Origin: a virus
DNA length: 24,312 bases
Reading direction: 5' to 3' (one strand)
IMG/VR virus record: IMGVR_UViG_3300025098_000275
Location: 1-24,312 of that record
Position numbers and translations under genes: made by a program. Position 1 is the stretch's first letter; each line of letters opens with the position of its first letter. This document shows positions 8,812 through 17,547 of this stretch, one piece after another. The notes beneath the pieces are model-generated. The model did no database searches. It saw only the letters and a list, made by a program, of their open reading frames with translations, and was not told where the DNA came from.

Positions 8812-9702
8812 TTATTTGATTTTTTTGTCAACGTCAACACGTTTTAAAGCTTCTAATTGATCGTAGAATCTGCCGCAATACTGATGTTCTCCGACGTGTG
8901 TAATGTAGTCTAGTGCATAAATATACACTTTACCTCCCATATCTGTCCACCTTTGACAGAAACCAAAGTCTTCACCAAAGTACCTTTTAGTCTCTACATC
9001 ATGTAATGTATCAAATAAATTATAAAAATTTTCTTTTGATGTTTCTTTACCATTAACTATAGTAGGTTGATATATCTTTAATTCAGGGTGGTGTTCTATC
9101 ATTTTTTCTATTACTTTTCTTTTAATTAACATACATCCAGTAGGAGCATGGCTAACTTCTATAACTCCATGATCTGATATAATTTCCTGTTTATTATCTA
9201 GTTTAAGTGGAAAAAAATAACCTGCTCTTAACAAATCATCTTTTGTTTTTACTAAATCTGTTTGGTGTAATTTTGCCCACATTCTATCTGTGTCGATCAT
9301 TTTCATTGGATAGGGACAAGAGATAACGTCTTTGTCAGCACCTATCATTTTAAATATTGTATTTGCTTCAAAATCTATATCTGAATCAATAAATAATAAA
9401 TAATCATAATTATCTGAATGATTAATAAATTCTGCTGCACATAAATTTCTACCTTGGGTAACTAAAGATGATTTTAATAAAGTAAAACTAACCAATATAC
9501 CTTGTTTCATACACTCCATTTGAAATTTTAAAACAGCTTGTGTGTAGTGCATTGAAACATCACTATGACACGGAGTACATACCATTATTTTAGCTTTTGG
9601 TTCTTGTCCTATATCTATTTCTAAAGTCTCCGTTTCTACTTTTTTCTCTTTTATTGTTTGATAAGTATCCTCGTTAAACCAAATGGGTTTATTGTTTTTC
9701 AT
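8812..9702 (-). CDS. GT-A fold glycosyltransferase, family 2-like
   Basis: This 296-residue protein has the landmarks of an inverting GT-A glycosyltransferase. A beta-strand start (AKIMVCTPCHSDV) lies at residues 37-49. LLFIDSDIDF at 102-111 contains the DxD metal and nucleotide-sugar site (D106, D108). APTGCMLIKRKVIEKM lies at 186-201, and GEDFGFCQRW at 243-252 carries the ED pair (E244, D245) typical of the catalytic base region. It would transfer a sugar from a nucleotide donor in the cytoplasm. It overlaps the upstream GT-B gene by 14 bp, so the two are co-translated. The acceptor is unknown: virion protein, phage DNA or host surface glycan are all possible. Glycosyltransferases are frequent accessory genes in marine phages. 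Confidence 0.82.
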   Translation of the reverse strand: MKNNKPIWFNEDTYQTIKEKKVETETLEIDIGQEPKAKIMVCTPCHSDVSMHYTQAVLKFQMECMKQGILVSFTLLKSSLVTQGRNLCAAEFINHSDNYDYLLFIDSDIDFEANTIFKMIGADKDVISCPYPMKMIDTDRMWAKLHQTDLVKTKDDLLRAGYFFPLKLDNKQEIISDHGVIEVSHAPTGCMLIKRKVIEKMIEHHPELKIYQPTIVNGKETSKENFYNLFDTLHDVETKRYFGEDFGFCQRWTDMGGKVYIYALDYITHVGEHQYCGRFYDQLEALKRVDVDKKIK

Positions 9703-10630
9703 TTATTGCTCCTTGTAAGAAAGTAGTCCAGTTTATGGACCTAATACTCCAATCATAAAATCTATTAACATAATCTTTTTGAATTTCTAAATGGTCCCTG
9801 ATCCCCGTGCTATGAAGCGTGTCTGCTGCAACTTCTATACTCTTTGCAAACTTTCTAGCTAAACTTTTGTAATCATTTGAGTAAGGTACATATACTGGAA
9901 ACTCTGCTCCTGTTTCATATATAGCTCCATAGTTTGTTGTAATACAATACAGACCTGCAGACATAGATTCTAATAGTGATATACAAGATGTTTCTTCCCA
10001 AATACTAGGGTACACAAATAATCGATAATCTTTTAAATGTTCTTTAATGTATTCGTTTGATTTATATCCAATGTAATTAACATTTGATAGTTGTTTTGCT
10101 TGATCGTATAGCTCATGGTAATAGTGATCATTGTGATCATAAAAAGATTTACCATATACTTCACAAGAAGAATAAACATCTAAACTAACTAATGGATTTT
10201 TAACAAGTTGCATAGCACCTAACAATATAGATAGACCTCTCCAGGGTGTGCAGTGATGAATAATTTTTATTGGATCACCTTTTTTATATGTAGTTGATAC
10301 AGCTTCTACGTTTTCAATACCGTTTTTAATTACAACACATTTTTCTGTGGGCAAATCAAATTGTTTAATAAATTGTTCAAAGTTCCAATTAGAGTTAAAT
10401 ACATACCAATCATATTTATTATGATTAGATTTATCTTTAAACCAATTAATTAAATTAGGTTGATCCCATGAATTTTTTTGCCAAAGTATATTTAACTTAG
10501 TTGAATGAAGTGGTATTTTTTCTGGAACAGATGTACAAATTTGAACTTGATCTAATAACTTAGAATCAACGTGGTTTCTTAAATATTCAAATTGAAGTTC
10601 TGTTCCGCCCCTAGGACTCTGATTTGTCAT
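9689..10630 (-). CDS. GT-B fold glycosyltransferase, family 4-like
   Basis: The N-terminus SPRGGTELQFEYL (residues 5-17) matches the donor-side GGTE loop of GT-B enzymes. The C-terminal domain has IHHCTPWRGLSILLGAM (124-140), a nucleotide-domain start, then LFVYPSIWEETSCISLLESM (204-223) with the E213-x7-E221 motif that binds the nucleotide sugar in retaining GT4-type enzymes. At 313 residues it is slightly shorter than most family 4 members (about 350-400). The N-terminal Rossmann domain is compact, as often in phage versions. It overlaps the 76-aa gene by 20 bp and the GT-A gene by 14 bp. Together they probably make a two-step glycosylation set. The acceptor is not evident. Confidence 0.82.
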   Translation of the reverse strand: MTNQSPRGGTELQFEYLRNHVDSKLLDQVQICTSVPEKIPLHSTKLNILWQKNSWDQPNLINWFKDKSNHNKYDWYVFNSNWNFEQFIKQFDLPTEKCVVIKNGIENVEAVSTTYKKGDPIKIIHHCTPWRGLSILLGAMQLVKNPLVSLDVYSSCEVYGKSFYDHNDHYYHELYDQAKQLSNVNYIGYKSNEYIKEHLKDYRLFVYPSIWEETSCISLLESMSAGLYCITTNYGAIYETGAEFPVYVPYSNDYKSLARKFAKSIEVAADTLHSTGIRDHLEIQKDYVNRFYDWSIRSINWTTFLQGAINEKQ

Positions 10631-11176: not shown

Positions 11177-11337
11177 GATAAAAAATAATTATATGTATCC
11201 TGTTCTTCTTTCAAGTCTTTTTGGTATGAAAAGTTTAATTCATTTTTAATTGAGTCTACTGATTGTAAAATTTGTCTTTGGTTTTCAACGTCATACTGTT
11301 GTTTTGGTTCTGGTATATAGGATGATATTTTTGCCAT
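11173..11337 (-). CDS. Small helical phage protein (54 aa), start revised
   Basis: The chosen start is ATG 11337, which overlaps the stop of the large upstream gene by one base (TAATG) and gives MAKISSYIPEPKQQYDVENQ, followed by a helical, charged tail. A longer in-frame start at 11388 would add 17 residues that lie inside the 650-aa gene, which is less likely. MAKISSY-type small proteins commonly follow the large tail protein in marine phages. The sequence is Gln/Glu/Lys-rich and probably one or two helices. Its stop overlaps the next start by 4 bp (ATGA). The role is unknown. It could be a tail assembly cofactor. Confidence 0.65.
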   Translation of the reverse strand: MAKISSYIPEPKQQYDVENQRQILQSVDSIKNELNFSYQKDLKEEQDTYNYFLS

Positions 11338-13289
11338 TATCTTCTTCCATCTGGTTTTATATCCACACGTAAGGTTCCATAACGCCATGTTTCACCTACA
11401 GCATCATTTTCTATTTTAATTGCAAGTAATCTTCCTCTAGCACGTGTGTCTACTTTATCTGTAGATGATGTTATTGTAAATGGACCAAGAGGTGAGCTTT
11501 TTGCTGTGTCACTTGGATAATTATTCAACAGTAGTGTTATTTTTGAATTACCACTTAACACTTTAAAGTCAGGTATAAATTTTCTTACAGACATAATAAA
11601 TTCACCATCACCTCTTAAATCACCCATATCTGTTAATACACCTTTTCCTGCTGTAATATCAAAATCACCAGATTGAATAAAAGCATCAATAGATGTTGTG
11701 ACTCCTGCTTTTATTTGATCAGTTCCTTTTTCGTGTTCATAGTAAGTAGACGAACCATACTTAGATGTTATACCTTGTATTGGAAAATTAGGTGTAGCAG
11801 ATTTACTATATTCTGTTGCGTAAGGTAGATCAAAAACTCCTTGATCAAGATAACTAGTTCTATTTAGTGAACTTGTGGTCCAAATATTTTCTGCGTAGTT
11901 ATATACTACACATCTATTAATTTGATCTGAAGTTGCTGAAGGATAGAACCAGTTTATTTCATTATATAAACTATTGTGTTCACAAAAAACTAATTGATTA
12001 GAACTATAATTTACTCCTAAATTATCTCCTGTTGTAGTAAATACAAAATCTTCAACAGGACATGGAAGCATTTTAACAGTACCATCGTACATAAAGAACC
12101 CACCTTCACCCGACATCCAAAAAACAATACCATTAGAATAACTAAGTGCATTTTGACCAATCAACCCACAGTTAGTACCTACCTGTCTAACAGAAAAGGT
12201 AAAAGGTGCTCCAACAAATTGAATTACATATGCAGATGTATCTGTTAAAACCAACGTATAGTCTTTACCCGACACTGCTCCTACAATTTCATTTCCTTTA
12301 TCAAGTCTAAAAGTACCAGCAGTATTTGTTGCTGTAGGTGTGTATGCATTTAAATCTTCTTGATTTGAAAATCTTATAAACATTGGGTCTTGAGTTGTAG
12401 AACTACCAACAGTTGTTTCAGTTCCAAAATGAAATAAATGCCTATCTCTATCTGATACTTGCGTTAGTATTGAAGAAGTTGGACTGCTTCCTGTTGCAAA
12501 ACCAGATGTCGTTGTAGATGCTCTATTAGCTCTTGGGCTAGCTGCACCTGCATTCCATGTAAATGTTTTACCATTACGAATAGTTGCAACCAACACTTGA
12601 CCAAAGTTATCTAAGGACCATAAACCTGGATCTAATACTACAGAACTAGTTGTACTAGCAGTTCCCCATGTACTTGATCCCCATGTAGATGTTCCCCAAC
12701 CTAAACCTGCGGTTTGAAACGTTGGACCCACTACTTCATACGGATCTATTTGTGCTGATCCCGTTCCCGATGTGGAACCTGCTGAATTTGAAGGCATAGT
12801 TATTTGAAAAGTATTTGCTGTTTTATTTAAAACTTCAAAAGTGTTACCTGTAAAATCTGCTATAGCATAACCTGAACCTGTTGGAACGGTTACACTAGTA
12901 AATGTTATATATCTTCCATCTAATAAACCATGTGAAGTTTTATTAACCGTAACTGTGGCAGAACCTGATACCGCAGTAAAAGTAACTCCTGTAATTACAT
13001 CATTATCTAAAGGAGAAATGTCAAAAAATTGTTCTTCATAATATAAAAATAAACCTTGTGAAGTTCCTATTGCAACATATTTCTCACCAGCAATACTAGT
13101 AAAAGCGTGCTGTGCTCTTGCAACACCTGGTAGTGTTTTATTACCGATAGTTAATTGACTCCAGCCCCCTATTTTTTCAGGGAAACCATACCTAAATCTA
13201 ACAAAATCGCCATCTACCCATTGGGATTCTCCTCCTGAATCCGTAACCATTTTATTAAAACCAGGTTTAAAATTAAGCTTTTGTAGCAT
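11337..13289 (-). CDS. P22 gp10-like / tail tubular B-like tail protein (650 aa)
   Basis: The start is set at ATG 13289 (MLQKLNFKPGFNKMVTDSGG, then ESQWVDGDFVRFRYGFPEKIGGW). An in-frame GTG at 13340 would place the start inside a long hairpin. The N-terminal signature and beta-rich character match a family placed with P22 gp10 packaged-DNA stabilisation or tail-hub proteins, with short beta-propeller-like repeats. Residues 100-185 look like an inserted beta domain (ATVTVNKTSHGLLDGRYITF), and residues 197-211 form a short GWGTSTWGSSTWGTA repeat. The C-terminus VDIKPDGRR is typical. It forms the lower tail or hub that seals DNA in the particle. Assignment to gp10 versus T7 gp12 is uncertain. 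Confidence 0.7.
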   Translation of the reverse strand: MLQKLNFKPGFNKMVTDSGGESQWVDGDFVRFRYGFPEKIGGWSQLTIGNKTLPGVARAQHAFTSIAGEKYVAIGTSQGLFLYYEEQFFDISPLDNDVITGVTFTAVSGSATVTVNKTSHGLLDGRYITFTSVTVPTGSGYAIADFTGNTFEVLNKTANTFQITMPSNSAGSTSGTGSAQIDPYEVVGPTFQTAGLGWGTSTWGSSTWGTASTTSSVVLDPGLWSLDNFGQVLVATIRNGKTFTWNAGAASPRANRASTTTSGFATGSSPTSSILTQVSDRDRHLFHFGTETTVGSSTTQDPMFIRFSNQEDLNAYTPTATNTAGTFRLDKGNEIVGAVSGKDYTLVLTDTSAYVIQFVGAPFTFSVRQVGTNCGLIGQNALSYSNGIVFWMSGEGGFFMYDGTVKMLPCPVEDFVFTTTGDNLGVNYSSNQLVFCEHNSLYNEINWFYPSATSDQINRCVVYNYAENIWTTSSLNRTSYLDQGVFDLPYATEYSKSATPNFPIQGITSKYGSSTYYEHEKGTDQIKAGVTTSIDAFIQSGDFDITAGKGVLTDMGDLRGDGEFIMSVRKFIPDFKVLSGNSKITLLLNNYPSDTAKSSPLGPFTITSSTDKVDTRARGRLLAIKIENDAVGETWRYGTLRVDIKPDGRR

Positions 13290-13299
13290 AGTTATCCAA

Positions 13300-13357
13300 A
13301 TATTATAAAAGAGACAGTGGTGGTATGTGGTGGTGTCCACTGTCTCTATTATAATAT
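13300..13357 (-). terminator. Long hairpin / probable intrinsic terminator after the oxygenase genes
   Basis: On the minus strand, arms of 21 positions (13357-13337 and 13320-13300) pair with one T:T mismatch. The inner 11 bp are AGAGACAGTGG with CCACTGTCTCT and the outer 9 bp are A/T only, around a 16-nt loop. The inner stem is followed by TTTT. It begins 2 nt after the stop of the last oxygenase gene and ends 11 nt before the large tail gene starts. It fits a rho-independent terminator or an RNase III processing site. The structure is symmetrical, so it could also act on the plus strand. Confidence 0.7.
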
Positions 13358-13358
13358 A

Positions 13359-13982
13359 CTACCTTTTAAACCAAGATGGAAGACCTAAATGTGGTCTTTT
13401 GTCAAACATATTTTCTTTGGATCCAGGAGTCTTTTTATTGTTATAGTGCAAAAAAACTTGAATACATTCTTTGCCTTTAAATTTATTTCTCCAATGTTCT
13501 AATTCACAACCGGAGTATACTAACATATCTCCTGGTTTTAAATCTACTTTAATACCTTTCATACCTTCTTTACCAGATGGCTCAAGATATATAGGCCAAG
13601 GATCACCACCTAAATTCATAGTAGTAGATATCTCACAACTAAATCTATCTTTATGCCTTACAAGTTCGTCACCTTTTTTATAAATTCTTGCATAAGTATA
13701 TGCAGGATATAATTTTAATCCTGTTGTTTTTTCCATAACTGGCTGACATTTCAACATTAAAGTTTCCATTGCGATGTCTGAATAACAAGAATAAGTATTA
13801 GGTATTTGTTCATCTTGTCCTTCATAATATCCAAGTAAAGTTTCATACGGAGAAATATATCTTTCTTTTCTACAAGTATCTAAAACTTGTTTTTGCATAC
13901 AAAAATAATTTGAAATAAACGTAGCTAAGTCTTTTGAGATAGCTTGCCTAATAACTGTGTATTTATTTTTTTTAAATGACAT
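13359..13982 (-). CDS. 2OG-Fe(II) oxygenase (207 aa)
   Basis: This is a double-stranded beta-helix oxygenase that would use 2-oxoglutarate, O2 and Fe(II). The iron-binding facial triad is visible as H110-K-D112 (ELVRHKDRFSCEISTTMNLG) and the distal H163 (CELEHWRNKF). A basic residue for 2-oxoglutarate lies downstream (R165, K169 or K171), before the strand ECIQVFLHYN. PAYTYARIYKKGDEL (93-107) is the typical strand before the HxD motif. It is the last of four consecutive genes, overlaps the previous one by 11 bp, and is followed at once by the long hairpin. The substrate is unknown. The families include protein (prolyl, lysyl), nucleobase and lipid hydroxylases. A virion or tail-fibre protein target is an inference from location. 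Confidence 0.85.
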   Translation of the reverse strand: MSFKKNKYTVIRQAISKDLATFISNYFCMQKQVLDTCRKERYISPYETLLGYYEGQDEQIPNTYSCYSDIAMETLMLKCQPVMEKTTGLKLYPAYTYARIYKKGDELVRHKDRFSCEISTTMNLGGDPWPIYLEPSGKEGMKGIKVDLKPGDMLVYSGCELEHWRNKFKGKECIQVFLHYNNKKTPGSKENMFDKRPHLGLPSWFKR

Positions 13983-14604
13983 CTCTAGCCATTTCTTTTG
14001 GTATAGCTTGTATATTCCAATGTATAAATCTAAAAGGTTCTACACCATGATCTACTGCAAATTCATGTTCTAAATATCCTGGAAATATAATTAAAGTTCC
14101 AGGTGTTACTTTAAAATGAATTAATTCAGTTCCATGAAATATACCATTACTATTTTTTAATTTTAATTTTGTAGAACGTGCACCAGTACGTGGTTCATGA
14201 AATATTGGAAAAGAAGTCTTATCACTTGCTTTTAAAAAGTAAAAACCTGATACGTGTTGATTCCAATGTATATGTGCATTATGATGTCCACCACCTTTTT
14301 TAGCAAACTCTTGTACCCATAACTCACTAAACATAGTCTGATATTGTTGCATATCAAAACCTTGCCAATCTAAAAACTCCCATGATTTCTGACCTACATA
14401 ATTTCTAAAATCTAAAAATTTATTATCGTTAATAAGTGGTGTAGAATGATAACTTCTTCCAAAATCACCATGTTTTTTTATATAATCTTTTTCTCTTTTT
14501 TTAGCTTCTTTTATATATTGATTAGAAGCTTTATTTAAAGATTTTACAAATTCAGGTTTTTGTTCAATCCATATAGGTGTTTTAAAATATTCATTTATTA
14601 TCAT
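13972..14604 (-). CDS. Putative 2OG-Fe(II) oxygenase, PF13759-like (210 aa)
   Basis: The start is set at ATG 14604, which follows the previous stop by 1 nt; a TTG at 14625 would only extend into that gene. The core shows HHNAHIHWNQHVSGFYFLKA (107-126) with candidate iron ligands H111 and H113. GTLIIFPGYLEHEF follows (169-182) with distal H180, and then FRFIHWN (191-197) with R192 as the 2-oxoglutarate anchor. HxH followed by SGFYFL and an EPRTGAR loop (137-143) is the pattern of the 2OG-Fe(II)_Oxy_5 group common in cyanophages and pelagiphages. This subfamily differs from its two neighbours, so the cluster is not a recent triplication. The substrate is unknown. Confidence 0.82.
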   Translation of the reverse strand: MIINEYFKTPIWIEQKPEFVKSLNKASNQYIKEAKKREKDYIKKHGDFGRSYHSTPLINDNKFLDFRNYVGQKSWEFLDWQGFDMQQYQTMFSELWVQEFAKKGGGHHNAHIHWNQHVSGFYFLKASDKTSFPIFHEPRTGARSTKLKLKNSNGIFHGTELIHFKVTPGTLIIFPGYLEHEFAVDHGVEPFRFIHWNIQAIPKEMARDVI

Positions 14605-14605
14605 A

Positions 14606-15235
14606 TTATTTAAAAGGATATCCAAGGTTCCACATGACCAATGAATATCTCACTCCTTTCGTTACAGGTTTTACTCTATGCCATACAAATGAAGGGAACA
14701 CAATAATAGATCCTTTCGGTAATATTTCTTTTGCTTGTTTTAAATGTTTGATTTCTTCTCTCATGTGAGGGTCATAGTTTCTAAAATCAAACTCTAATTC
14801 ACCACCTTCATATTCAGAGCCATCCGTAAGTTGACATGTCATAGATAACTTTCTAATTTTACCTTTTTCTGGTCCCTCTTTTTCATAAGGTTTGTCCCAA
14901 CTATCGCAGTGCCAATCATAATATTGATTTAATTTATATTTTGTAAATTGACAAGATTCACTTCTGTCCCAGTCAAAATTCCAACCAGCATTTCTATTTG
15001 CTTTATGTATGTAAGGATGTAATTCTTTATATATCCAAGTATCATTTAACCAAACTAAATCAGAGTTTCTTCTTTTTTTTATATCTTTTATTTCGTCATT
15101 AGTTAATTTTCTATCTCCATAACCACCAGTTCTAGCCATAGATTCAGATTTAGATAAACCGTATTTAATTATATCATCACAAATTTTAGGAGGTATTGCA
15201 GATGTAAAATACCAATAGTGATTAGATATATTCAT
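14606..15235 (-). CDS. PKHD-type 2OG-Fe(II) hydroxylase (209 aa)
   Basis: This is a textbook PKHD/prolyl-4-hydroxylase-like domain. YKLNQYYDWHCDSWDKP (100-116) gives H109 and D111. EYEGGELEFDF (141-151) forms the conserved beta turn. KGSIIVFPSFVWHRVKPVTK (174-193) supplies the distal H186, and GVRYSLVMWNLG supplies R196 for 2-oxoglutarate. The N-terminal 60 residues (SKSESMARTGGYGDRKL) resemble PKHD hydroxylases such as PiuC. It overlaps the upstream gene by 14 bp and is followed 1 nt later by the next oxygenase. PKHD enzymes hydroxylate proteins or small molecules. Here a virion protein target is possible but unproven. Confidence 0.88.
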   Translation of the reverse strand: MNISNHYWYFTSAIPPKICDDIIKYGLSKSESMARTGGYGDRKLTNDEIKDIKKRRNSDLVWLNDTWIYKELHPYIHKANRNAGWNFDWDRSESCQFTKYKLNQYYDWHCDSWDKPYEKEGPEKGKIRKLSMTCQLTDGSEYEGGELEFDFRNYDPHMREEIKHLKQAKEILPKGSIIVFPSFVWHRVKPVTKGVRYSLVMWNLGYPFK

Positions 15236-15746
15236 AAGTTATTGTCTGTATAAAATTCAATGAATCTTTCTGTTTGTTTTTTATGTAATACATATTTGTT
15301 GATGGAAACATAATAAACTTATTATCTTTAAGTTCTATATCCCAACTTCTTCCTTTACGTCTGTTGTCTTCATAATGTATTCGAACAAAACAATCTTTAA
15401 CTTTAACACCATAAAGCATTGTAAAGTCTGGAGAGTTTCGTAGATCTACTGGATCAACTTGCAATAAAGGAATTGTTGTTTCCGCAGGTTTATAGATATT
15501 TCCCCACGTTGATTTGTTAATTAAATTAATATTATATTCAAGACCGATGTGATCTCGCATATATGTATTTAACATATCCCAAGTTTTTGAAAATGGAAAA
15601 TTTTTGTTTTGAATTACTGATTGTAGGATGTCGTCTGATAATTTTTTTCTATCAATGTCCCAATCTTTAGGCATTGCTATATTGCCAAAATATAACGCTT
15701 GTTCTGTTAATACTTTCTTTTGCATACCTGGATGTAATATATACAT
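15222..15746 (-). CDS. Probable degenerate 2OG-oxygenase/cupin-fold relative (174 aa)
   Basis: The C-terminal half looks like the end of a 2OG oxygenase: CFVRIHYEDNRRKGRSWDIE (119-138), then KDNKFIMFPSTNMYYIKN (140-157) and a final strand (LNFIQTITYEYI). The position of the usual distal His (FPSxxxHxV in the next gene) is Tyr here (Y153 or Y154), and HYED (124-127) only partly resembles HxD. It may be inactive or use other ligands. Two starts are possible: ATG 15746, used here, or ATG 15725 eight codons in, which fits the promoter better because a dyad and -10 box overlap the first start. The gene opens the oxygenase cassette. Confidence 0.6.
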   Translation of the reverse strand: MYILHPGMQKKVLTEQALYFGNIAMPKDWDIDRKKLSDDILQSVIQNKNFPFSKTWDMLNTYMRDHIGLEYNINLINKSTWGNIYKPAETTIPLLQVDPVDLRNSPDFTMLYGVKVKDCFVRIHYEDNRRKGRSWDIELKDNKFIMFPSTNMYYIKNKQKDSLNFIQTITYEYI

Positions 15747-15748
15747 CC
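15730..15748. promoter_or_regulatory. Operator-like 19-bp dyad over the -10 region
   Basis: GGATGTA at 15730-15736 and TACATCC at 15742-15748 are a perfect 7-bp inverted repeat around a 5-bp A/T centre. The dyad covers the predicted -10 box and the ATG at 15746 of the first cassette gene. This is the geometry of a repressor operator. It could equally fold in RNA as a small stem-loop hiding that start codon. No cognate regulator is in the window. Confidence 0.4.
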
Positions 15749-15765
15749 GTCATTTATAATGTCAA
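15736..15765 (-). promoter_or_regulatory. Sigma70-like promoter before the oxygenase cassette
   Basis: On the minus strand a consensus TTGACA (15765-15760) is followed after 18 bp by TATATT (15741-15736), or after 16 bp by TATATA (15743-15738). The expected transcription start is near 15729, just before the ATG at 15725. It lies in the 48-bp gap after the MAHFAK-type gene and is the only exact TTGACA I found in an intergenic gap here. AT-rich DNA raises the chance of random matches. Confidence 0.5.
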
Positions 15766-15778
15766 TTGATATTAAAAG

Positions 15779-15796
15779 AATTGATCTAGATCAATT
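15779..15796 (-). terminator. Perfect 18-bp palindrome, possible weak terminator
   Basis: AATTGATCTAGATCAATT is fully self-complementary and covers the stop codon of the MAHFAK-type gene. On the minus strand it is followed by CTTTTAAT, so an mRNA hairpin of 7 bp with a 4-nt loop plus a short U-run could end transcription. The stem is AT-rich and therefore weak. It could instead be a binding site for a dimeric regulator next to the TTGACA box. Confidence 0.4.
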
Positions 15797-16244
15797 ATGC
15801 TTTAGAATCTGTTAGATCCCAAGACTGTCCTGATTCATTCCAAATGTAAGACCAGCTGTGAGTATCTGCTTCGTTTTGTGAAGTTTGTTCAGCTGTTAAT
15901 GCTGGAGCATCACCGATTGGTGAATGCCATTGAGCATCAGATGTATCTTTTACCCAAGAAGCGTAAGGTTTTTTAGGCCAGAAGATTTGATTATCTTCAT
16001 CCCAAGTATAACCAATACCTGCATAGTTTCCTCTTAATGGAGTTTTACCTTCTTTATGTTGGTTACTTCCTGTATTATAGGAAGTTTGAATCCACATTTG
16101 TGCAGGCCAGTTATTATGTGTTTCTAAATATTGTTGACCCACTGATTCATCTTCAACACCATCAGCATTTAACATATTTTTGTTATCAAGTGTTAATACT
16201 TGAATAACTTTACTGTTAGCTCCTAGTTTTGCAAAATGTGCCAT
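15795..16244 (-). CDS. MAHFAK-type virion/tail-associated protein (149 aa)
   Basis: The protein begins MAHFAKLGANSKVIQVLTLD and continues with GQQYLETHNNWPAQMWIQTS, then LRGNYAGIGYTWDEDNQIFW. This is a familiar family in cyanophage and pelagiphage genomes, usually near tail or fibre genes. The C-terminal half is Trp-rich (PYASWVKDTSDAQWHSPIGD and WSYIWNESGQSWDL), suggesting a small carbohydrate-contacting or beta-sandwich module. A good AGGAG Shine-Dalgarno sequence lies 7 nt before the ATG. The function has not been established to my knowledge. Its position right after the two Gly-rich adhesins suggests it belongs to the fibre apparatus. Confidence 0.7.
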   Translation of the reverse strand: MAHFAKLGANSKVIQVLTLDNKNMLNADGVEDESVGQQYLETHNNWPAQMWIQTSYNTGSNQHKEGKTPLRGNYAGIGYTWDEDNQIFWPKKPYASWVKDTSDAQWHSPIGDAPALTAEQTSQNEADTHSWSYIWNESGQSWDLTDSKA

Positions 16245-16293: not shown

Positions 16294-17547
16294 TTATTGA
16301 TATTTATACCTTATTACTACTACTCCAGATCCACCAGCACCACCTGTATTATTTCCTACTCCTGGTTTTCTACCTGCTCCACCGCCACCACCTCCAGTGT
16401 TAGCTGTTCCAGCAGTTCCATTATTTCCTTTTGCTCCAGCGCCTCCACCTCCAGATCCACCAGAACCAGCGCTTCCAGGGACTGCGGGAAAACATCTAGC
16501 TCCTCCACCGCCACCACCAGCTCTTGCAGTTGGTGTTGCATTTATAGATGAAGTAACTCCGGCACCTCCAGTAACACATGAACCAGCTGCACCTGCTCCA
16601 CCACCTCCGGCTCCACGTTCTTGAGGTACTGACTGACCGCCACTATTTCCTTGAGGAGGACTAACTGGAGGAGTATTTCCTGCTCCAACACCTGATTGTC
16701 CTTGTCCTGCTCCACCACCAGAACCTCCTGCTACTCCAGCGCCAGCGCCGCCACCACCACCGCCACCAGCTGAGGTTTTAGAACTAAAAACTGAATTACT
16801 TCCTGATGATCCATTTCCAGCATTTTCTGGATCTCCTACGTGACCTGCTCCTCCACCACCTACAGTAATAGGGTAACCTTGTACTGCTACCGGTAAAGCA
16901 CTTACACCAGATCCTAAAGGAGAAGCTGAATAACAACCACTTGCTGCACCTGAAGATTCTCTAAAACCACCAGCACCTGCTCCACCTGCTCCATTACTAT
17001 TAGCAGCACCTCCGCCACCACCGGCAATCACCATATAATCTACTGTTGCCGAACCAGCGGCATTACCTGCATTGGATACACAAAAAGTACCAGGGCCTGT
17101 AAAAGTATGAATTTTAAAATCTCCAGATGTTGTAATTGTTCCACCAGTTGCTGTTACAAATTGTGGAGAAGTAATAGCACTTGCTTGTCCAGCATCGACT
17201 GATAACCAACCTTTTGTTGAATCAACATAAACTAATACTATACTTAATCCTTCTATATTTGCTTTAAAATCACCTGCCTCACCTTGAATTTTAGATCCAT
17301 TTCTACCTATCGTAACATTATTAGTATCAAAAGTATTTGCATAATCAGCAACAGCAACGACATCACCTGCACCTGGTGACGATGGCAGTGTGACTGTAAT
17401 AGCCCCTGAAGTAGTGTTTACAAAATACCCGTTACCGCTGACTGCTGTAAAATTTCCTGTTTTAGCAGTCGTGTCCCATGTAATGGCACCAATGTTTTTA
17501 AAAGTACCTTCATCTATTAAAGTTGTTCCACATGAATTTATTCCCAT
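16294..17547 (-). CDS. Glycine-rich adhesin-like tail protein, copy 2 (417 aa)
   Basis: Residues 1-115 (MGINSCGTTLIDEGTFKNIG, then WDTTAKTGNFTAVSGNGYFV) form a beta-rich N-terminal domain nearly shared with the next gene upstream. A strand block follows (GGTITTSGDFKIHTFTGPGT, then DYMVIAGGGGG), which is the canonical opening of phage Gly-rich domains. About 235 residues of GGGG/GAGG sequence end in GGSGVVVIRYKYQ. Such regions can fold as polyglycine-II sandwiches, as in the gp38 adhesin tips of some T-even-like phages. Receptor binding at the fibre tip is likely. Several Cys residues (SCVTGG, RCFPAV) are absent from its paralogue. The reverse strand has proline-rich open frames that are only shadows. 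Confidence 0.72.
   Translation of the reverse strand: MGINSCGTTLIDEGTFKNIGAITWDTTAKTGNFTAVSGNGYFVNTTSGAITVTLPSSPGAGDVVAVADYANTFDTNNVTIGRNGSKIQGEAGDFKANIEGLSIVLVYVDSTKGWLSVDAGQASAITSPQFVTATGGTITTSGDFKIHTFTGPGTFCVSNAGNAAGSATVDYMVIAGGGGGAANSNGAGGAGAGGFRESSGAASGCYSASPLGSGVSALPVAVQGYPITVGGGGAGHVGDPENAGNGSSGSNSVFSSKTSAGGGGGGGAGAGVAGGSGGGAGQGQSGVGAGNTPPVSPPQGNSGGQSVPQERGAGGGGAGAAGSCVTGGAGVTSSINATPTARAGGGGGGARCFPAVPGSAGSGGSGGGGAGAKGNNGTAGTANTGGGGGGAGRKPGVGNNTGGAGGSGVVVIRYKYQ

Follow-up and report, generated by a model that had tools for sequence, protein, structure and literature searches.

Oxygenase genes beside the tail fibres

Oxygenase-related genes form a compact block beside the fibre genes of the marine virus record IMGVR_UViG_3300025098_000275. 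The window analysed here (24,312 bases) is the entire virus record, and all relevant genes lie on its minus strand. It is a fragment of an HTVC023P-type podovirus, a pelagiphage (ocean phage of SAR11-type bacteria). Pelagibacter phage HTVC023P matches the region around the block at 74% identity, in an alignment that covers 84% of the region, and 023Pt_psg01 also aligns. We name the four cassette genes A, B, C and D in transcription order, and the gene before A is called T.

Read along the minus strand, fibre genes lead into the block. Two Gly-rich fibre/adhesin-like proteins with PF21722 (17559–18782, Pfam E 3.5e-18; 16294–17547, Pfam E 3e-12) precede T (15795–16244; 149 amino acids (aa), phrog_7759), a Trp-rich fibre-associated protein, and a T–A intergenic element (15726–15796). 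A (15222–15725), B (14606–15235), C (13972–14604) and D (13359–13982) follow as co-directional open reading frames (ORFs) that overlap or abut, just as the initial annotation described them (174, 209, 210 and 207 aa). A hairpin resembling an intrinsic terminator (13300–13357) ends the block, and downstream lies a virion structural gene (phrog_3287; 11337–13289, start set by alignment; PHROG E 4e-80).

B and C carry complete active sites of iron- and 2-oxoglutarate (2OG)-dependent oxygenases. B (209 aa) belongs to PF13640 (2OG-FeII_Oxy_3; Pfam E 1.3e-15), and its HxD...H...R site, H109-D111-H186-R196, is conserved to at least 99.5% in about 219 sequences. Among solved structures, a PDB profile search places it nearest to PKHD-type hydroxylases, with a weaker match to a viral prolyl hydroxylase. 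NCBIfam PKHD models match B at E 1.6e-15 yet far under their cut-off, which places it outside the curated equivalog; its sequence suggests a protein related to PKHD/prolyl 4-hydroxylases. C (210 aa) matches PF13759 (2OG-FeII_Oxy_5; Pfam E 8.8e-12), is TIGR02466-like, and represents the HxH variant of the superfamily site (HxH...H...R), with H111-x-H113, H180 and R192 each at 99% or more.

Gene D has an oxygenase fold with one altered position. Its HxD...H residues, H110-D112-H163, are conserved at 100%, and Gln175 (100%) stands 12 residues past the last His, where the Arg or Lys that binds 2OG is expected. Other invariant arginines (R99, R113, R165) could substitute. HHalign aligns D with a PF13640-type family (O165; probability 88, E 4e-7), and in cyanophage ACG-2014f D is fused to a B-like domain. 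Public resources call this 207-aa protein a ferrochelatase (phrog_2954). Searches for ferrochelatase similarity gave no Pfam match at E<=1 and no NCBIfam match at E<=0.1; with the alignment to an oxygenase family, this leaves the public name unsupported by sequence.

A second public label in these phages raises the same concern. Marine phages also carry phrog_274, a family that public records call DNA endonuclease V. Its members, inserted in many of the loci described below (for example L003:16591-17073, L007:5362-5874 and L372:11344-11832), are oxygenase-like, with a conserved HxD...H...R pattern and a 97% HHalign match to a PF13640-type family. This label, too, is probably wrong.

Gene A is a conserved pseudo-oxygenase. 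Its ORF is open from 15746 (174 aa), and relatives start at the eighth codon, that is at 15725, giving 167 aa. Profile searches of Pfam, PHROG and NCBIfam found no family match for A, and no His is conserved at 90% or more across relatives. The AlphaFold model is confident (pLDDT, the predicted local distance difference test, 89.9), and its best PDB matches are 2OG oxygenases (Foldseek/VIA; VIA Z 15.3 to 2rg4/3bvc, 14.5 to a prolyl-4-hydroxylase and 14.1 to PHD2). The predicted fold is thus a prolyl-hydroxylase-like double-stranded beta-helix. HHalign with shallow alignments found nothing; with deep profiles, A matches a PF13759-type family (O183) at 97% and E 1e-10. In that alignment HxH becomes LxQ/N and the distal His becomes Tyr146 (99%), leaving A without the iron ligands.

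Intact relatives of A occur at two loci. In L084 (4259-4813) and L030, an intact oxygenase that shares the NSPD signature of A lies directly before T, and the ligand-less A comes after T. In the tree these intact relatives cluster with A (86/91), all A proteins form one clade, and the intact form is possibly the active ancestor type. Median dN/dS for A is 0.14, comparable to that of B–D (0.12–0.16), and points to purifying selection of equal strength. Sequence and model together indicate that A is a functional, conserved pseudo-oxygenase derived from a PF13759-type enzyme. We found no A homologue outside the 023P group in a search of phage records.

These assignments refine the first description of the quartet. 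It had listed three genes with HxD/H...H...R or K ligands, which stands for B and C and fails for D at Gln175. The proposal that the oxygenases come from different subfamilies (PKHD, PF13759-like and a third) was sound, and the fourth gene, A, lacks a conserved His yet is oxygenase-derived. Rather than as "three oxygenases plus one unknown", the quartet is better described as a pseudo-enzyme of oxygenase descent and three oxygenase-fold enzymes, of which one has its co-substrate residue altered.

Gene content and orientation in the fibre slot

Gene order among relatives is nearly invariant, and gene content is highly variable. We compared about 370 related loci drawn from sequence collections, in which Gly-rich fibre–T–A–B–(C)–D is a nearly fixed succession: of the 215 loci that carry three or more of A–D, 213 preserve A-B-C-D, and T stands before A in 228 of 249 cases. 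Only 62 of the 164 loci holding A through D show an uninterrupted A-B-C-D, and there are 49 different compositions. Additions come one gene at a time, at the junctions within A–D. The inserts are mainly other 2OG oxygenases; they also include a sulfotransferase, a carbamoyltransferase and a Trp halogenase (Pfam E 1e-105) that has no counterpart in the window and whose closest solved relative is the viral halogenase VirX1 (PDB 6qgm; E 3e-85). At one locus a 555-aa NodU-like carbamoyltransferase sits between A and B (L095:3807-5474). In all, some twenty non-orthologous enzymes exchange in one fibre slot.

An unbiased sample links the enzymes to the fibre. Slots drawn via the downstream structural gene (phrog_3287) yielded 41 complete cases, 37 of them with oxygenases: all co-directional in 21, all opposite in 16 and mixed in none. 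Slots with a Gly-rich fibre are co-directional in 20 of 21 cases and other slots opposite in 16 of 20, an association whose Fisher p-values ignore kinship. Cultured HTVC027P lacks the quartet; the same slot is filled there by three different oxygenases, encoded on the opposite strand. Orientation changes at least six times on the structural-gene tree.

The comparisons suggest that the block is part of the fibre module. It changes together with fibre type and therefore belongs to that module, contrary to the initial annotation, in which the quartet interrupts the tail module. The same annotation expected the four genes to have been gained as one unit, to be recognised by comparing relatives. 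Content does differ between relatives, as HTVC027P illustrates, but the quartet is not simply there or missing as one piece between flanking genes that otherwise adjoin: it varies gene by gene and shifts with the fibre module.

A conserved hairpin and an optional promoter-like element

The block ends in a genuine, conserved RNA element that by sequence is intrinsic-terminator-like. The predicted structure (-24.3 kcal/mol, z -7.5) has an 11-bp core stem (13310–13347), nine further A-U pairs, a loop at about 13321–13336 and a TTTT tail. Across 26 distinct relatives, double-sided changes occur at 11 of 11 core pairs with 100% of cells paired, against 4.7 such pairs in shuffles. Hairpins of this kind lie 3' of 109 of 172 D genes, compared with 0–4 of 132–231 (at most 2%) for A, B, C and T. 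The exact loop, CACCACCACATACC, is confined to the block 3' end. The hairpin with TTTT that had been noticed after the quartet is thus borne out by both folding and covariation.

The upstream element appears, on sequence evidence, to be real yet optional. The palindrome, TTGACA site and operator-like dyad noted earlier are all present in the window. The palindrome is perfect over 18 nucleotides (nt) (15779–15796) and overlaps the T stop. TTGACA (15765–15760) and TATATT (15741–15736) give 11 of 12 consensus matches, and the dyad (15729–15749) overlaps the -10. With the start of A corrected to 15725, the -10 lies before the likely coding sequence and not inside it. This site is top-listed of 62 promoter-like sites in the scanned region, where chance predicts 62.7. 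Among relatives, T and A lie fewer than 36 nt apart at 189 of 228 junctions; the usual spacing of 18 nt leaves a promoter no room. TTGACA occurs in 18 of 28 distinct longer gaps, where 0.26 would be expected. Near-identical copies of the window's 69-nt T–A element occur in seven other contigs, and it stays almost unchanged even where the A proteins of the contigs diverge by about 13%; such near-identity suggests strong constraint or recent exchange.

These elements do not make the quartet a self-contained moron, acquired as one invariable set of four genes, promoter and terminator included. That explanation has on its side the block's own terminator, a covarying hairpin with a T tail, the promoter-like element of the window, which holds for this lineage, and the absence of the quartet from HTVC027P. 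It conflicts with the scarcity of the plain A-B-C-D order and with the adjacency of T and A across an 18-nt gap in most relatives, where the promoter is missing and the block directly follows fibre and T. We consider it largely refuted as a general statement and the least probable of the explanations weighed here. The comparisons support a block that is one transcription-unit-like set in the fibre region, with a conserved 3' hairpin and, in some lineages, a putative promoter of its own.

The hairpin loop may also contact the start of the block. In most relatives the loop (13321–13336 here) is complementary to the start codon and ribosome-binding site (RBS) that belong to the first gene behind T (GGTGGTGGTATG). 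The motif GGTGG stands ahead of 148 of 252 A starts and of 20 of 2,967 starts elsewhere. Among 68 short-gap loci, the loop pairs best with the start of this first gene in 59; at the five loci where another gene has come to lie before A, it is that gene which the loop matches in every case. Shuffled loops still rank the first gene top in 44 of 68 loci, so the ranking is largely compositional. Pairing energies (-15.1 versus -8.8) exceed the compositional expectation, and the locus-specific fit was reached in 0 of 300 permutations. The window itself has a loop/RBS match of only 6 nt, and its loop finds better partners in runs of Gly codons within the fibre genes; in locus L100 the RBS has altered with no change in the loop. 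A comparable arrangement is known from icaR mRNA, where a 3'-untranslated region pairs with the Shine-Dalgarno sequence (PMC3868564), likewise a 3' element complementary to its own transcript's RBS. Compared with icaR, the phage pairing is predicted only, is weak in the window and carries strong compositional confounding.

A bolder account would make the loop a regulator. Fibre, T, a substrate-presenting A and exchangeable hydroxylases, halogenases, sulfotransferases and carbamoyltransferases would form one transcriptional virion-tailoring module that diversifies the receptor-binding tip, with pairing between the terminator loop and the RBS of the first tailoring gene setting enzyme dose. We hold this combined account tentatively, as a possibility that falls short of likely.

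Candidate substrates of the enzymes

Our preferred reading is that the block is a variable, exchangeable tailoring-enzyme island of the tail-fibre module in HTVC023P-type and related marine phages, whose enzymes modify a virion protein with A as a non-catalytic partner; we give it about even odds (0.5). That it is an exchangeable island is supported by the fixed linkage of Gly-rich fibre, T and A, by the oxygenase-filled slots and by unrelated phages that repeat the neighbourhood. That it tailors proteins is suggested by the co-resident VirX1-related halogenase, sulfotransferase and carbamoyltransferase, by the PKHD and viral prolyl hydroxylases nearest to B, and by the D–B fusion in ACG-2014f.

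The neighbourhood of fibre, T and oxygenases recurs in HTVC033P, HTVC008M, Mosig, S-SM1, DSL-LC04 and P-RSM4. In many phages a T homologue comes after fibre genes, and in HTVC033P, HTVC008M, S-SM1 and DSL-LC04 oxygenases lie alongside. B and D homologues are adjacent near fibres in P-RSM4 and Bellamy, and in P-RSM4 a carbamoyltransferase also lies beside them. The cyanomyoviruses S-SM1, P-RSM4 and S-CREM1 (Sullivan et al. 2010, PMC3037559) share B and D homologues, a "leprecan", a carbamoyltransferase and a Trp halogenase with the pelagiphage loci, often beside fibres. They differ in that the phage records searched gave no gene A for them and that D can stand alone in the replication region.

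Under the tailoring reading, B, C and D would act late in infection, hydroxylating a virion protein encoded next to them, for which the Gly-rich fibre and T are the likeliest candidates. In some relatives, plug-in enzymes would halogenate, sulfate or carbamoylate it as well. A, unable to bind iron in the usual way, may bind or present the substrate as a non-catalytic partner. The analogy is with the OGFOD1/Tpa1 prolyl hydroxylases (PMC4396695), in which a catalytic beta-helix domain is joined to a dead one with a proposed role in binding substrate or partners; the phage instead encodes its dead partner in a gene apart from any putative mate enzyme. The phage would gain chemical diversity at the tip that contacts the host.

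Two specific substrate ideas did not hold. The Gly-rich fibres carry a conserved GNTPP(VSPPQG) motif, once per such protein amid variable Gly-rich sequence, at most loci with B. We rejected it as a required hydroxylation target of B: the GNTPP form is present in 167 of 224 loci with B but absent from the Gly-rich proteins of HTVC008M, Mosig and S-SM1. T is rich in Trp (family mean 5.9%, against 1.8% across all genes), and its confident predicted model had no PDB match and only unnamed viral relatives in a structure search. As a halogenase substrate it was likewise rejected, its Trp content being 5.6% with a halogenase and 5.9% without.

That last result is one of several that weigh against fibre-linked tailoring. 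Where the oxygenases lie on the opposite strand, they cannot share the fibre transcript. A relatedness-corrected test of fibre type against orientation, in which the Gly-rich label misreads incomplete contigs, left 4–5 informative pairs, all in the expected direction and not significant (p 0.125). T and Gly-rich proteins occur without oxygenases in many phages, T for example in Greip, CRP-207, Melnitz, HTVC025P and CRP-143. D homologues are found near nucleotide-metabolism genes in ACG-2014f and, in Syn30 and P-SSM7, within the replication region, next to dam and the clamp loader. The replication-region placement speaks most strongly against a role confined to the fibre.

The same D homologues beside the dam methyltransferase and replication genes favour a role in modifying or repairing DNA, RNA or nucleotides, as does the endonuclease V label of one block family. 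That family is itself oxygenase-like, B matches protein hydroxylases, and the block sits in the late fibre module, so we regard nucleic acids as very unlikely targets. Host surface glycans or lipids seem slightly less improbable, if still quite unlikely. The enzymes would decorate them, for instance in a receptor change during infection, together with two glycosyltransferases. Glycosyltransferase-like genes of this kind (PF00534; phrog_1574) lie a few genes downstream of the block at 9689–10630 and 8812–9702, with a pair in the equivalent position in HTVC023P and HTVC027P, and relatives encode the sulfotransferase and NodU-like carbamoyltransferase. Here too B stands closest to protein hydroxylases, and the tight linkage is to the Gly-rich fibre and T, not to the glycosyltransferases.

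Published work has favoured host metabolism. Sullivan et al. 2010 (PMC3037559) proposed a metabolic role for cyanophage 2OG oxygenases. Wittmers et al. 2022 (PMC9599517) describe the oxygenase/"ferrochelatase" cluster of the same HTVC023P-type phages, including the co-location of the two kinds of gene, and read it as host-metabolism genes with a haem-enzyme partner. A 2024 time series (PMC11561400), which used phrog_61 and phrog_2954 as seasonal markers, likewise treats these genes as part of host metabolism. As auxiliary metabolic genes the enzymes would serve host metabolism, acting on metabolites tied to 2OG/nitrogen status, iron or haem, and haem oxygenase and bilin-reductase genes do adjoin the block in Mosig. 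The haem argument falls, however, because D is oxygenase-fold without ferrochelatase similarity. Some twenty non-orthologous enzymes swapping in a fibre slot are unlike a single metabolic pathway, and A is conserved without catalysis. We judge a metabolic role unlikely, if less so than action on glycans or nucleic acids.

Several features of the island appear to be new. The parts of Wittmers et al. 2022 consulted do not describe gene A, the linkage to fibre and T, the plug-in halogenase, sulfotransferase and carbamoyltransferase, or the hairpin. In the open-access literature we searched, we found no account of the pseudo-oxygenase, the label error, fibre linkage with plug-in tailoring enzymes or the covarying hairpin. 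Of these, the pseudo-oxygenase, the corrected label and the link to the fibre appear to be new.

The island bears on the old puzzle of why 2OG oxygenases are so numerous in marine phages. If the "ferrochelatase" is truly an oxygenase-fold partner in a fibre-linked tailoring island, conclusions drawn from its label need re-reading. A pseudo-oxygenase conserved in hundreds of phages would offer a handle on the substrate, and mass spectrometry of one cultured phage would turn this puzzle into a testable question.

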